From: a virus
Direction: 5' to 3' (one strand)
DNA length: 30,494 nt
Virus record (IMG/VR): IMGVR_UViG_3300022074_000238
Coordinates: 1 to 30,494 of that record
Shown here piece after piece: positions 1,526-26,902 of this stretch. Under the pieces are notes generated by a model. That model did not search any database and was not told where the DNA came from. It worked only from the letters and a program-made list of their open reading frames with translations. Within the stretch, counting starts at the first letter, position 1. Each line of letters starts with the position of its first letter. The position numbers were made by a program, and so were the translations under genes.

Positions 1526-2030
1526 GCGAGGACCACTTCCAAAGCCTTCGGACGAAGCTCAAGGGCATAGGTCTCGTGAATTGCAGATCATTTCAGGTCA
1601 CTCTGAGCTTAAGACTTCCCCACCGAAGCCAACACGTGGCTGGTTAAAGGGAACACGTGACCGTTGGTATGAATATTGGGACTCAGATGTTGCGGGTGTT
1701 GCTCAAAAGGTTGACCTGCCTGCTGTTGAGCGTCTGTTTGGAATGTATGACCAATATGCAAGGGTTCAAAAAGTTGTAAAAAAGTCACTTGTGGTTCGTG
1801 GTTCAACTGGACAAATTAGAACTAATCCATTAGCGGAGCATGCTCTAAAACTAGAAACGCAAATATTGAGGCTAGAGAATGAGTTGGGTCTTACTCCGAT
1901 GGCTCGTCAAAGACTTGGCATTGCTGTTGGTGAGGCTGCTACTTCTCTAGCGTCAATCAATGATTTGTTAAACGCAAGCGATGACGCTGCGACTGACCCT
2001 AGGATTTTAGAACTCCTGGAGGAAGAGTGA
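1518..2030 (+). CDS. terS: Terminase small subunit (P27-like)
   Basis: This 170-residue protein should recognise phage DNA and start packaging with the large terminase. The N-terminus GKRGPLPKPS matches the G-[RK]-RGPxPKP opening of P27-type small terminases. A helical middle (LEIQILRLE-like segment) and an acidic tail follow. GTG 1518 is preferred because this opening begins there and AGAGGA sits just upstream; the frame stays open back to ATG 1470, deep inside the methyltransferase gene. The stop overlaps the next gene as GTGA. Unusually, two cytosine methyltransferase genes separate it from the large subunit. Assignment rests on the opening motif and on position. Confidence 0.78.
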   Translation: MGKRGPLPKPSDEAQGHRSRELQIISGHSELKTSPPKPTRGWLKGTRDRWYEYWDSDVAGVAQKVDLPAVERLFGMYDQYARVQKVVKKSLVVRGSTGQIRTNPLAEHALKLETQILRLENELGLTPMARQRLGIAVGEAATSLASINDLLNASDDAATDPRILELLEEE

Positions 2031-2665
2031 ACGTTATAGAATTATTTGCTGGCAGTTGCAGTTTTTCTGATGTTGCAAAGGAGCGAGGTCACAAAACAAT
2101 CACGTCTGATAATGGAAAGGATTTATTTACTGTTGAACAGTTTTCTAAAATTAATTTAGTTGAAAACATTTTATTTTTAGAGTCTGATGTATTTGTAAAT
2201 TTTAAGCCTGATGTCATTTGGGCTAGTCCACCTTGCACTTATTTTTCCGTATCAAGTATCGGCAAGCATTGGAATAAAGACAACACTCCTAAATCAACTG
2301 AGGCTGTTCTTGGTGTTAAGTTAGTGCAGAAAACTTTTGAACTTATAAATCAGTTAAATCCACAGTTTTACTTTGTTGAAAATCCTAGGGGTAAGTTAAG
2401 AAAACTAGATTTTATGAGCGAATATAAAAAGCAGACTGTTACGTATTGTCAGTATGGTGATGAGAGAATGAAGCCAACTGACATATGGACTGACTCGTCC
2501 TGGGTTGGACGTCCAATGTGCAACTATGGTGACGATTGTCACGAGTCTGCACCTCGTGGTTCTACTTGGGGAACGCAAGGACTTGACAATGCTTTTGAAA
2601 GGTCAAGGGTTCCTGAGGAGCTTTGCTTAGAGATCATCAAATGGTTGGAGGTCAAGTGCGTGTAG
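2027..2665 (+). CDS. Small cytosine-C5 methyltransferase-like protein
   Basis: This 212-residue protein resembles a shortened cytosine-C5 DNA methyltransferase. It opens with NVIELFAGSCS, an SAM-binding motif I of the FxGxG type. WASPPCTYFS near residue 65 is the catalytic PPC motif IV, and FVENPRG near residue 118 replaces the usual ENV. No C-terminal motif IX/X (RxLxxxGNAV) is visible, so the target-recognition part is reduced or differs. The GTG start at 2027 overlaps the preceding stop and follows GGAGGAAG. It lies directly before a full-length cytosine methyltransferase. Small phage proteins of this type are often annotated as DNA methylase; activity is unproven. Confidence 0.75.
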   Translation: MNVIELFAGSCSFSDVAKERGHKTITSDNGKDLFTVEQFSKINLVENILFLESDVFVNFKPDVIWASPPCTYFSVSSIGKHWNKDNTPKSTEAVLGVKLVQKTFELINQLNPQFYFVENPRGKLRKLDFMSEYKKQTVTYCQYGDERMKPTDIWTDSSWVGRPMCNYGDDCHESAPRGSTWGTQGLDNAFERSRVPEELCLEIIKWLEVKCV

Positions 2666-4083
2666 GCAGTTTGTTTTCAGGCATTGGGGGTCTTGAGTAT
2701 GGTCTTGAACGTGCAGGTCTTGTGACTTCTCATGAGTGGATGATTGAAATGGATGAGTATTGTTGCACGGTCTTGCGTAAAAATTTTAAGAATTGTTTAA
2801 TAATTAATGATAAAGTTGAAAATATAAACCCTAGGGACTTGCCTGGAATTGATATTTTAACGGCTGGGTTTCCTTGTCAGCCTGTATCTGTTGCTGGTAA
2901 TCAAAAGGGTTTGAATGATGAAAGGTGGTTATGGGATGAAGTTTGGCGTTTTGTCAATGATTTACGACCGCGATACTTCCTCGTGGAGAATGTCCCGGGG
3001 ATATTTACAGCAAATAAAGGCGAAGCAATCAACAGAGTTCTCAAAGATATTGCCGAGAGCGGGTTATATCGATTTGAGTGGCAGGTTATTTCAGCTAGAT
3101 CCGTTGGTGGTCCACACTTACGCAAGCGATTCTTTGGAGTTGGGACGTTGGGAGACTCCAAACACCATGGACCACTTGCCGGCAAGGACAGGGGACGCTT
3201 ACGTCAAAGCTCTGCACCGGGGAGACCTAACCAAAAACACGAGGAGGACTTCAACTGGGAACTTGAGAGAAAATCCCAAGGTGACCGGGAACTGGCCGAC
3301 TCCAACGACAAAGGGCTACAGAGCATCGGAGGGCGAGGTCATGATAATGAGAGCCGAAGTAGAGAAGGGCAACTTGACGGAAGAGGAAGCCGAGACGATG
3401 TTGGGTTCGACGCTGCGTCCACCAAGGATGAAGGCTTGGCCGACTCCATCAACTCAAGACAACGAGCACGAGGACTTGAAGTTAAACGAAAAGGGCAGAA
3501 GGAAAGCAAAGAACGGAGGCGAGAGCAGATCATTAAATCTAGCCGACAAGGTTCAGGTTCAGTCCTGGTCGACTCCGAGAGCAAGTCAGGCCAGCAAACC
3601 AATAAATCAAAAGGCACCAAGCGTAAAAAACAAAAAGCACGGCTCGACTCTAGAGATGGACGTGGGGGAACGCAACAAAAAACTAATAGGTCGGAGGCTC
3701 AACTATGGATGGGTGGCACGGCTGATGGGCTACCCAGATGGATGGCTCGACTTGGATTAGTGAATGTTTGGATTGGTAACACTCAAAAGTTTAGCACTCC
3801 TATCACAAGTTCTAACCGTCCAAGCACTAAAAGAATATTAGAAGGTAATAATCCAAAAAAAAATTTAGCAGAAGACCCGAAGATTTATTTCGAGGAGGGT
3901 TATGACTTGTGGGAGTACGGAATGCCACGGTCCAAGGATGAATACCCTGGTCGTGTTGACAAATTAAAAGCATTAGGAAATGCTGTAGTTCCTGAATGTG
4001 CAGAACTTGTTGGTCGTCTTATTAAACGTGCTGATGAGCTTGGCACTATGGTTTTTGATTTAAGTTTATTGGAGGAGGAATGA
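2656..4083 (+). CDS. dcm: DNA cytosine-C5 methyltransferase (Dcm-like)
   Basis: This 475-residue enzyme is predicted to transfer a methyl group from SAM to cytosine C5 in DNA. Motif I is SLFSGIGGLEYGL, the catalytic motif IV is GFPCQPVSVAG, motif VI is FLVENVPG, motif VIII is HLRKRFFGVG, and the C-terminus carries KLKALGNAVVPECAE (motif X). GTG 2656 lies five bases after GGAGG and overlaps the preceding gene. Between motifs VIII and X is a long, low-complexity, charged insert with repeated L-x-D-S motifs (3148, 3292, 3436, 3565). That insert is co-encoded with a second open frame. The stop overlaps the large terminase start (ATGA). Target site unknown. Confidence 0.9.
   Translation: MRVGSLFSGIGGLEYGLERAGLVTSHEWMIEMDEYCCTVLRKNFKNCLIINDKVENINPRDLPGIDILTAGFPCQPVSVAGNQKGLNDERWLWDEVWRFVNDLRPRYFLVENVPGIFTANKGEAINRVLKDIAESGLYRFEWQVISARSVGGPHLRKRFFGVGTLGDSKHHGPLAGKDRGRLRQSSAPGRPNQKHEEDFNWELERKSQGDRELADSNDKGLQSIGGRGHDNESRSREGQLDGRGSRDDVGFDAASTKDEGLADSINSRQRARGLEVKRKGQKESKERRREQIIKSSRQGSGSVLVDSESKSGQQTNKSKGTKRKKQKARLDSRDGRGGTQQKTNRSEAQLWMGGTADGLPRWMARLGLVNVWIGNTQKFSTPITSSNRPSTKRILEGNNPKKNLAEDPKIYFEEGYDLWEYGMPRSKDEYPGRVDKLKALGNAVVPECAELVGRLIKRADELGTMVFDLSLLEEE
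2936..3760 (+). CDS. Overlapping-frame WPTP-repeat protein within the Dcm gene
   Basis: A 274-residue frame lies wholly inside the cytosine methyltransferase gene, one base out of phase. It resembles a phage protein type found with Dcm genes: an N-terminal DTSSWRMSRG, then ILPRAGYIDLSG. Next come W-[EPS]-T-P repeats near 3149, 3293, 3437 and 3566, then a C-terminal VARLMGYPDGWLDL. Each WxTP is made by the same bases as an LxDS motif of the methyltransferase. ATG 2936 follows AAAGGTGG by seven bases; ATG 2915 is an alternative. The function of the family is not known to me. It could be a methyltransferase partner or specificity part. The match is from memory of the motif pattern, and translation is unproven. 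Confidence 0.62.
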   Translation: MKFGVLSMIYDRDTSSWRMSRGYLQQIKAKQSTEFSKILPRAGYIDLSGRLFQLDPLVVHTYASDSLELGRWETPNTMDHLPARTGDAYVKALHRGDLTKNTRRTSTGNLRENPKVTGNWPTPTTKGYRASEGEVMIMRAEVEKGNLTEEEAETMLGSTLRPPRMKAWPTPSTQDNEHEDLKLNEKGRRKAKNGGESRSLNLADKVQVQSWSTPRASQASKPINQKAPSVKNKKHGSTLEMDVGERNKKLIGRRLNYGWVARLMGYPDGWLDLD

Positions 4084-13509: not shown

Positions 13510-14361
13510 ATGCCACTTGGTGCAGCAAGGTTTGGACTTCAGTCAGGTGTCGTCAAAATGGATGCATCTGGTGGTTCAACTTCCACTTATACTGAGGGTG
13601 GTAAAAATTACAAAGCACACACTTTTACAAGTTCAAGTAATTTTGTTATTTCAACTTTAGGTGACGGTGCTACCCAGATTCTAATTGTTGCAGGTGGAGG
13701 TAGTGCAGGTGGCGGTAATGATGACCCTAATTCAGGAGGCGGTGGCGGTGCAGGTGCTTTTGTAGAAGATACTTTAACGTTTTCATCAAGTGGGACTTAT
13801 CCAATAGTAATTGGTGCGGGTGGTGCACAGGTAAGTCATACAAATGTTGGTAATCAAGGAAATGCTAGCCAAATTCAAGCCATTGGTGGTGGTTCAAATT
13901 TAAAACAAGGTAATGGTGGAGGTCGTGGTGGAGACCCTGGTGGTGTTGGTGGTGGTTCAGGTAACCCGAACGGTGGTTCTGGTGGGGGATCTGGTGGTGC
14001 AAACACAGGCACTTCATCAGGAGGTAGTAAAGGTAATAATGGCGGTCCTGGTGACGGTGGTGACCGTGCTGGTGGCGGTGGCGGTGCAGGTGAAAGTGGA
14101 AACTCAGACGGTCAAGGTGAGGGCGGTGATGGTTCCTCAAACACTTATAAAGACGGCTCAACAGATTTTTACGCTGGTGGTGGCGGTGGCGGTCGTGATG
14201 GTGGCTCTAATGGTGGCACTGGCGGTGGTGGCGATGGCACAGATGGTCAAAGTCCACACGCAGGAACCGCTAACACAGGCGGTGGTGGCGGAGGGGCCAA
14301 AGGAGCTCACGTTGGTCGTGCAGGAGGATCTGGCATTGTTGTGATAAGGTATGAGGTCTAA
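13510..14361 (+). CDS. Glycine-rich tail fibre / adhesin
   Basis: This 283-residue protein should be an exposed fibre that contacts the host. The first ~85 residues are a beta-rich Ser/Thr domain (YKAHTFTSSSNFVIS, then ILIVAGGGSAGG). Residues ~70-270 are dominated by Gly runs with Asn, Ser and Asp, the composition of polyglycine-II sandwich adhesins such as T4-like gp38. The C-terminus GSGIVVIRYEV is a recurring end of such phage fibres. TTAGGAG precedes the ATG by about five bases. The stop overlaps the next start by one base. Gly repeats could promote variation of receptor binding. Confidence 0.8.
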   Translation: MPLGAARFGLQSGVVKMDASGGSTSTYTEGGKNYKAHTFTSSSNFVISTLGDGATQILIVAGGGSAGGGNDDPNSGGGGGAGAFVEDTLTFSSSGTYPIVIGAGGAQVSHTNVGNQGNASQIQAIGGGSNLKQGNGGGRGGDPGGVGGGSGNPNGGSGGGSGGANTGTSSGGSKGNNGGPGDGGDRAGGGGGAGESGNSDGQGEGGDGSSNTYKDGSTDFYAGGGGGGRDGGSNGGTGGGGDGTDGQSPHAGTANTGGGGGGAKGAHVGRAGGSGIVVIRYEV

Positions 14362-25512: not shown

Positions 25513-25706
25513 TGCCGAAGGTAAAAATACCAAGTTCTGTTTTAAACAGTTTAGAAACTGTTAGGAGTTCTGGTCTTGTAAATATGGCTGACTTGCGTGG
25601 TATCAAAGAGTTGGTGCCTACGGAGGTTAGTGAGTGGCTTGATAGGAATAAATCTCTCTACATGGAGGGTTTCTTTTATGGCTTTGAAGCTGAGGAGGTT
25701 CAATAA
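25512..25706 (+). CDS. DUF5049-like small protein
   Basis: This 64-residue protein has LNSLETVRSSGLVNMADLRGI, then a helix with EWLDRNKSLYMEGFFYGFE. The pattern [IL]-x-x-VR-SG--NM-D, a spacer, and a final Y---[IF]--G matches the small phage family DUF5049, whose function is unknown. It lies immediately before the integrase and is joined to it by a TAATG overlap, so the two are probably made together. Confidence 0.62.
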   Translation: MPKVKIPSSVLNSLETVRSSGLVNMADLRGIKELVPTEVSEWLDRNKSLYMEGFFYGFEAEEVQ

Positions 25707-26902
25707 TGGCTTGGACTCATATTCGTAAACGTGAAACTAAAAAAGGCACGGTTTATCAGGCAAGTGTTAAAGAAGTTGTTGAGGGTAAAGATAAAACAAT
25801 TTGGTCAGGGACCTTCAAAACTAAGGGCGAAGCTCAAGCGTCTGTAACTGAGTATCTTGATGGTGTTAATAAAGGCACCATCAAGCATGTTGTTGACAAG
25901 ACTAATTTTAAAGCGTTTTGTCTAAATGTTTGGCTGCCGTCTTGCCGTGTAAAAGTTGAACGTGCTGAAACTTTAAAAAAGTATCAAATGTATTTGGATA
26001 ATCATTGGATGGAGCACTTTGGGTCTTTGAAAATGACAAAGATTGACTCTGTAATGCTTAACCGTTGGCTTGAGGTCAAGCGTGCTGAGGGCTTGTCTGA
26101 GGGCTACCTTGCTCGTTTACAGGGTGTTTTAAGCTCTGTATTTGAGTTGGCTGTTGAGACAAACTCCCTGGGCACAAATCCAATGAAAAAAAAGGCGACT
26201 GTTCGTGTCAAAATTCCAAAGACCAACCGTGACGCTTATTCTGTTGAGGAGGTCAGGGGTATCTTGGCTTATATCAAAGATAACGACATGATCAGGCGTG
26301 ACTATTTTTTCTTTTATCTTGCTTTGACGACAGGTCTTAGACGTGGGGAGCTTTGTGGTATAAGGCTTGAGGACATCAAGTATTCTGCTGATGGGCTGAC
26401 TTCCGTCATTTCAGTCACTAAACATGTTGAAAAAGTAAGAGATGGAGGACGAACCGTAGACTTTGTTGGGTCTAGCTCAAAGAAAAACCATAACCGTATG
26501 GTTCCTCTTGACGTCAGCTCAACTGCCGAACTTAAAAGGCACCTTGAGAGATGTCACTCTGGCGAGGTCTATGGTCGTTCCTGGAACTCCAACAATGAGG
26601 ACCGTGATATTTGGTCCAATGACGGTTGGTTATTCCATCGTGGTAATGGTCGAGCTGTTGTGCCTGACTCTTACACTGCCGCTTTTAAGCGATATTGTAA
26701 GCAGGGAGGTTTCCGTTATATGGGACTTCACGCTACTCGTCATACTGTTGCTACAGGTTTGCACCGTGCAAACGTTCCTATTGGCACTTCTGCCACTCTC
26801 TTGGGTCAAACTCCTGAGACGTTCTTACGCACTTATGTTCACATCTCGGATGATGACCTTGTTGCTGGCCAATCAGCTTGGGCTGATGAACTAAAAAACT
26901 AA
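25706..26902 (+). CDS. int: Tyrosine recombinase integrase
   Basis: This 398-residue protein should integrate the phage into, and help excise it from, the host chromosome. The N-terminal ~60 residues look like an arm-binding AP2-type domain (WTHIRKRETKKGTVYQASV in outline), followed by a core-binding domain at ~70-165. The catalytic domain has Arg 212 in TTGLRRGEL, H342-x-x-R345-H346 in HATRH, and Tyr 377 in FLRTYVH. All key residues are present. A strong bidirectional hairpin follows. The likely attP should lie close by, but no host att sequence can be identified. Confidence 0.95.
   Translation: MAWTHIRKRETKKGTVYQASVKEVVEGKDKTIWSGTFKTKGEAQASVTEYLDGVNKGTIKHVVDKTNFKAFCLNVWLPSCRVKVERAETLKKYQMYLDNHWMEHFGSLKMTKIDSVMLNRWLEVKRAEGLSEGYLARLQGVLSSVFELAVETNSLGTNPMKKKATVRVKIPKTNRDAYSVEEVRGILAYIKDNDMIRRDYFFFYLALTTGLRRGELCGIRLEDIKYSADGLTSVISVTKHVEKVRDGGRTVDFVGSSSKKNHNRMVPLDVSSTAELKRHLERCHSGEVYGRSWNSNNEDRDIWSNDGWLFHRGNGRAVVPDSYTAAFKRYCKQGGFRYMGLHATRHTVATGLHRANVPIGTSATLLGQTPETFLRTYVHISDDDLVAGQSAWADELKN

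Follow-up and report, generated by a model that had tools for sequence, protein, structure and literature searches.

When a second open frame lies inside a phage methyltransferase gene, does the stretch encode two proteins, and if so, what would the second contribute? The question is raised by a virus record of 30,494 nucleotides (IMG/VR IMGVR_UViG_3300022074_000238), analysed here as one window that takes in the entire record. The record is that of a tailed phage: it has genes for terminase, portal, head and tape-measure proteins and for an integrase. A gene for a C5-cytosine methyltransferase, here called alpha, sits between the small and large terminase genes. A preliminary description, made from the letters of the DNA alone, had placed a second frame, here called beta, wholly inside alpha; the frame is present, at an offset of +1 relative to alpha, and ends in GWVARLMGYPDGWLDLD as claimed. 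The two genes and the sequence ahead of the second are:

2656..4083, plus strand: alpha, putative large subunit of a C5-cytosine methyltransferase (Pfam DNA_methylase, 5.8e-49; phrog_363, 1.1e-56)
2915..3760, plus strand: beta, nested +1-frame gene of 281 amino acids (phrog_1008, 1.7e-11; codon constraint)
2903..2914, plus strand: Shine-Dalgarno-like AAAAGGG upstream of the beta ATG at 2915 (sequence)

The likely start of alpha is the GTG at 2656, within an open reading frame (2623-4083) that is open from a TTG at 2623. The ATG of beta at 2915 is followed by further ATGs at 2918 and 2936, and a second Shine-Dalgarno-like stretch, AAAGGTGG at 2921-2928, precedes the last of these. A Shine-Dalgarno-like match of at least 4 bases is found at 73% of beta first ATGs (198 distinct loci), as against 18% of controls, which were 2112 ATGs in the same relative frame inside other genes. 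Given the alpha protein and phage codon usage, the probability of finding the beta frame open is 2e-5. Conversely, given the beta protein, an alpha frame free of stops across the whole insert has a probability of 1e-16 under phage codon usage, or of 1e-5 under the usage of beta itself. The low values both ways indicate that both frames are kept open.

Beta consists of an N-terminal part, then four WxTP modules, then motif IX. Two stretches of the overlap need to be distinguished:

2915..3145, plus strand: dual-coding part, with alpha motifs VI-VIII (RYFLVENV ... HLRKRFFGVG) over the N-terminal part of beta (DTSSWRMS ...) (alpha fourfold sites 0.166 versus 0.28-0.30 outside the overlap)
3146..3705, plus strand: alpha insert, predicted to be disordered, with the WxTP array of beta on the same DNA (pLDDT; fourfold-site pattern)

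Beta could in principle be a chance open frame, an untranslated shadow of conserved alpha motifs: its N-terminal part lies over motifs VI-VIII, where conservation is partly inheritable from alpha, and DTSSWRMS is the +1 reading of RYFLVENV. In the insert, the substitutions refute this. Among relatives, substitutions at alpha codon positions 1, 2 and 3 are 0.08, 0.03 and 0.22 before the overlap, but 0.18, 0.05 and 0.04 in the insert, where the first position of alpha is the third of beta; after the overlap, the alpha third-position value is 0.26. The pattern in the insert is thus reversed and follows the codon rhythm of beta, with the alpha residues unconstrained.

Divergence at fourfold sites was estimated from 87 independent pairs of relatives with bootstrap 95% intervals, many of the pairs sharing deeper common ancestry. 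At alpha sites outside the overlap it is 0.296 (0.249-0.347) and 0.283 (0.222-0.352), falling to 0.166 (0.138-0.195) over motifs VI-VIII and reaching 0.052 (0.037-0.071) across the insert. For beta sites of the insert the value is 0.243 (0.214-0.271), an interval that shares part of the range seen at alpha sites outside the overlap. Even over motifs VI-VIII, 68 of 76 pairs show slower change at the alpha fourfold sites. This pattern indicates that beta is protein-coding, that alpha and beta are both constrained over VI-VIII, and that the alpha residues of the insert are nearly free to vary. Beta-type codon constraint is common to the relatives. The Shine-Dalgarno-like sites at beta starts and the presence of motif IX in beta but not in alpha (below) also oppose a chance frame. 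With codon-position substitutions, fourfold sites, open-frame probabilities and Shine-Dalgarno-like sites all against it, the chance reading is rejected, its probability being very small. Beta is a real protein-coding gene, and the alpha amino acids in the insert are apparently close to unconstrained.

The idea of two genuine proteins in one stretch, put forward in the preliminary description, is therefore borne out by codon constraint, open-frame probabilities and Shine-Dalgarno-like sites, and each of the observations on which it was said to turn falls on the same side: the second frame has relatives (phrog_1008), related phages keep it open, and the synonymous variation of alpha is lower in the overlap than outside. 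The reported shift in base composition is also seen, the overlap insert being 63% purine with a GC fraction of 0.53 and T of 0.14, versus 51-56% purine and GC of 0.38-0.43 in non-overlapping neighbours. The same DNA does encode WxTP in beta and LxDS in alpha at four sites (3148/3149, 3292/3293, 3436/3437 and 3565/3566). LxDS as a conserved alpha motif is nevertheless rejected: the alpha residues facing WxTP vary freely among D/N/Y/H and T/A/S/P, as third-base degeneracy allows, and their proportions are for the most part those of background codon use, ACT and CCG/CCT being somewhat in excess. At the third base of the x codon and of the T codon in WxTP, divergence is 0.17 and 0.20, compared with 0.21 at other beta fourfold sites of the insert. 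These bases are not fixed, so the fourfold occurrence of LxDS in the window is no family feature of alpha; it is the frame shadow of WxTP.

What beta contributes is suggested by the distribution of the motifs of C5-methyltransferases over the two chains:

3695..3757, plus strand: beta C-terminus with motif IX, RLNYGWVARLMGYPDGWLDLD (near-invariant in alignments A1 and A5; in beta, not alpha)
3940..4035, plus strand: alpha C-terminus with motif X, GRVDKLKALGNAVVPECAELVGRLI (motif alignment; higher-confidence helices in the model)

In the alignment of relatives (A2), alpha carries motifs I-VIII and X, including PCQ (IV) and ENV (VI), while motif IX, with the pattern LMG[FYW]P, is absent from alpha. 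By position and pattern, RLMGYPDGW of beta is motif IX. The methyltransferase had been described as keeping motifs I-X, which holds for I-VIII and X; motif IX has to be assigned to beta. Alpha belongs to the C5-methyltransferase family (PF00145) by its motifs and fold, but departs from the usual family trait of having motif IX and the recognition domain on the same chain, a trait that known split enzymes also lack. The predicted structure of alpha is confident over residues 1-167 and again, as helices, near motif X, with pLDDT below 50 at residues 168-273 and 297-353. Its best PDB match is M.HhaI, over 166 columns only (Foldseek, 7e-15).

Beta belongs to phrog_1008, 'DNA methyltransferase'; all 42 beta relatives scanned match this family, as does the window (1.7e-11). 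The second frame had been attributed to a methyltransferase-associated family of phage proteins, and this is the family in question. Residues 181-277 of beta also give a weak, sub-threshold match to positions 200-293 of the Pfam DNA_methylase profile (E = 0.23), which covers the region from the recognition domain to motif IX and is suggestive only. The AlphaFold model of beta alone (mean pLDDT 57.7, pTM 0.26) is too poor to interpret, and Foldseek fold search, phmmer and profile searches found nothing in the PDB for beta. Poor folding on its own might be expected of a detached part of a domain, and is not evidence for any fold. With motif IX in beta and none in alpha, beta looks like a subunit of the enzyme. 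The preliminary description had called it a partner protein; the association with the methyltransferase stands, an accessory role appears not to fit.

We therefore favour, at a probability of about 0.8, the reading that a C5-cytosine DNA methyltransferase of two subunits is encoded here, the gene for one lying inside the gene for the other. In such an enzyme, alpha would bind the cofactor and contribute the catalytic motifs PCQ and ENV as well as motifs VIII and X. It would be translated through the overlap, whose sequence would serve as an unconstrained linker. Beta would start independently within alpha, from its own ribosome site and in the +1 frame, and would bring motif IX and, in place of the target-recognition domain, about four WxTP modules in a row. 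Alpha and beta would then bind each other and so join into the active enzyme. Each module may read one DNA target, giving the enzyme several specificities, and the resulting methylation may shield the phage against host restriction.

A division of this kind has precedents among known enzymes. In M.EcoHK31I, the gene of the small subunit lies within that of the large one and is read in a different frame; M.EaeI is organized likewise. Nesting at +1 is observed directly at the present locus. In M.EcoHK31I, a two-polypeptide enzyme specific for YGGCCR (Lee, Kam and Shaw 1995, cited in PMC3404938), motifs I-VIII and X are on alpha and motif IX is on beta (PMC3404938), which is the division found here. 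Its recognition domain was predicted in the large subunit (PMC3404938). Here, in contrast, the recognition position is occupied by a variable, exchangeable array of modules, mainly in the small subunit and with some in the alpha frame. In M.AquI, a split C5-methyltransferase specific for CYCGRG, motifs I-VIII are on one subunit and IX on the other (PMC3404938). The window and most relatives differ from M.AquI in having motif X on alpha and beta fully nested. Ten distinct loci resemble it more closely in that motif X is also on beta, but with overlap. In these (L156, L171, L178 and seven other distinct loci), alpha stops after motif VIII and beta has the modules, IX and X.

A different kind of out-of-frame gene is known from the ShiLan methylase of actinophages: HNH genes lie out of frame inside phage methylases, and the in-frame reading is disordered (PMC11855218). 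Outwardly the present locus looks the same: a phage methylase gene harbours another, out-of-frame gene, and its in-frame reading is disordered. The insert could accordingly be viewed as a selfish element, a hidden homing endonuclease. In ShiLan, however, the extra frame is a homing nuclease contained in an insertion and not a part of the enzyme. Beta starts over motifs VI-VIII, not within an insertion, and holds the enzyme's own motif IX, which is missing from alpha. No HNH or other nuclease domain was found among the Pfam and PHROGs matches of beta and its relatives, which match phrog_1008. Furthermore, close relatives with complete loci all keep beta, with no pattern of presence and absence. 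A hidden homing endonuclease is rejected on the lack of nuclease matches in Pfam and PHROGs, and its probability is close to nil.

The breadth of the two-frame arrangement was surveyed in genome collections of viruses and bacteria, with beta, alignments of beta relatives and a single-chain enzyme described below (L145) as queries. These searches were keyed on beta-like patterns, and the counts that follow describe the 361 distinct loci found rather than a share among all C5-methyltransferases. In 309, beta is nested at +1 with motif X in alpha, and in one it is nested with no X detected. The genes overlap at +1 in a further 37, with X in alpha in 27 and in beta in 10. Six were classed as single chains and eight were left unassigned, several of them at contig ends. 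All 347 two-frame cases are at +1, and an offset of +2 was found in none of the 361 loci. Genome matches carry the titles Paenibacillus, Brevibacillus, Actinoplanes, Sphingomonas, Dictyobacter, Planctomycetota, Chlorobiota and Neomarinimicrobiota, and some may be prophages; a search of plasmids yielded 5 records and did not add to this. It is uncommon for an overlap of genes to preserve two working proteins over distant lineages. The +1 arrangement found here turns up in hundreds of phage contigs as well as in genomes whose titles fall under several bacterial phyla. Selection is clear on both frames over the catalytic motifs. The locus also shows how an overlap can last: of the two frames in the insert, one is conserved, and for the other it is enough to stay open.

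The single chains are informative on the place of the modules. Two of the loci classed as such (L281 and L369) have no motif X in the frame concerned and could be frameshifted, and only three others (L145, L337 and L338) are relied on here. These three carry motif VIII, WxTP modules and motif IX in that order in a single frame. The modules thus take the place of the recognition domain, and beta is therefore probably an array of recognition modules that has become detached, together with motif IX. Several distinct tandem modules between VIII and IX are the mark of multispecific C5-methyltransferases, and the overlap does lie at the target-recognition position, as the preliminary description had it. 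In L145 (single chain at 1874-3130), one further module and the N-terminal part of beta are still in the +1 frame, as if the remaining modules had changed frame. Single chains with the same parts in one frame might also suggest that, at the present locus, a programmed frameshift leads from one frame into the other, so that the product is a single long chain and not a pair of subunits. However, beta has its own ATG and a Shine-Dalgarno-like site in most loci, and both frames are open for hundreds of bases beyond any single shift point, which makes such a fusion quite improbable.

The window has four modules in beta and one in the frame of alpha:

3149..3292, plus strand: beta module 1, WETPNTMD...STGNLRENPKVTGN (alignment; cluster 0 of the module survey)
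3293..3436, plus strand: beta module 2, WPTPTTKGYRASEG...RPPRMKA (absent in close relative L004; cluster 2)
3437..3565, plus strand: beta module 3, WPTPSTQDNEHED...LADKVQVQS (absent in L004; cluster 6)
3566..3694, plus strand: beta module 4, WSTPRASQASKPIN...KKLIG (alignment; cluster 1)
3790..3906, plus strand: further module of the beta-module type in alpha's own frame downstream of beta, FSTPITSSNRPSTKRILEGNN...EEGYD (resembles the alpha-frame module type, cluster 9)

In the module survey, the insert part of beta splits at WxTP into modules with a median length of 40 amino acids, 0 to 6 per beta, which form 32 clusters with at least 5 members each. One long module type is in frame with beta 19 times; 26 times it lies downstream of beta, in the frame of alpha itself. 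The longest type (about 135 amino acids; L007 2998-4137 and L029 2718-4448), which is found in either frame, has a helix-turn-helix-like stretch (IKKTTVDHWFRKD...SYPSLEDW).

Modules are also gained or lost and exchanged as units. The close relative L004 is without modules 2 and 3 of the window owing to a clean 273-base difference, the ends of which are CTGG(C/T)CGACTCC, the sequence coding for WxTP. All 75 well-flanked indels over related pairs are multiples of three, and in 49 of the 75 both ends are at most 15 nucleotides from a WxTP site, for which about 17% of positions qualify per end; neither these indels, many of which share ancestry, nor the module pairs that follow are independent counts. 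Modules at least 65% identical occur on backbones less than 45% identical in 1729 pairs over 182 loci, and in 401 of these pairs the two modules are at different positions in the array. Similar modules seldom occur together in the same beta (10 of 1159 pairs). The discreteness, exchange and position of the modules are as would be expected of exchangeable target-recognition domains. The suggestion that the overlap is tied to specificity is plausible from the position and exchange of the modules.

The WxTP modules could alternatively be structural repeats, beta being real but its modules serving to join alpha and beta or to bind another protein, with target recognition left to alpha. The prediction for M.EcoHK31I (PMC3404938) places the recognition domain in alpha; module number varies from 0 to 6, some relatives having one short module only; and beta has no fold or sequence match in the PDB. 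Set against this, the model of alpha has no conserved or confidently folded segment at the place of the recognition domain, the modules take that place in the single chains, and exchange between distant backbones together with the scarcity of repeated types fits specificity modules better. We consider the structural reading unlikely.

Treating the modules as recognition domains, we lean towards a wider proposal: that a widespread class of phage and bacterial C5-methyltransferases holds its specificity in an overprinted second gene. That gene would be an array of recombining WxTP cassettes in the +1 frame, swapped between distant enzymes at WxTP boundaries and movable between frames, while the catalytic subunit would read the same DNA as an unconstrained linker. 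Tandem recognition domains as such are known from C5-methyltransferases of Bacillus phages, where they are about 40 amino acids each. The present array resembles these in having tandem modules at the variable region. In enzymes such as M.H2I, they give several targets (PMC8936443), but M.H2I-type enzymes are single-chain. The modules may be unrelated by sequence to the recognition domains of Bacillus phages: tblastn of phage records with a Paenibacillus beta listed Paenibacillus, Lacticaseibacillus and a few other phages, and no Bacillus phage was named. A module array on a separate, overprinted subunit is, by analogy with these enzymes, two known principles joined.

That the nested gene is a real subunit gene of a known enzyme class is well supported. 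The record of Paenibacillus phage Shelly gp56, of the same family, already annotates the nested gene as 'g55 internal gene'; the Shelly and phrog_1008 entries are without subunit role, module structure or motif division. The present analysis suggests a role for phrog_1008 proteins, of which the record says only 'DNA methyltransferase'. A literature search of partial coverage found no earlier phage report of this arrangement; within that coverage, neither its breadth nor the array of exchangeable modules appears to have been described. Should the modules be recognition domains, the stock of exchangeable methylation specificities in phages would be large (32 families with at least 5 members in the sample), and annotation of one frame per locus misses it.

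Other open frames within genes are also present in the window. A frame of 143 amino acids (13913-14344) lies at +1 within the gene at 13510-14361 (phrog_2295), and another of 143 amino acids (26463-26894) within the integrase gene at 25706-26902; both are without a PHROGs match and could be due to chance. Near alpha, a second, small C5-methyltransferase-like gene (2027-2665; phrog_757, 3.8e-30; Pfam DNA_methylase, 7.5e-6) separates alpha from the small terminase gene. L004 has alpha directly behind the end of the small terminase gene, indicating that the gene at 2027-2665 has been gained or lost. Just upstream, at 44-1525, is a fusion of a ParB-like and an N6/N4 DNA methyltransferase part (phrog_498, 6.4e-108), so that three methyltransferase genes flank the terminase genes.
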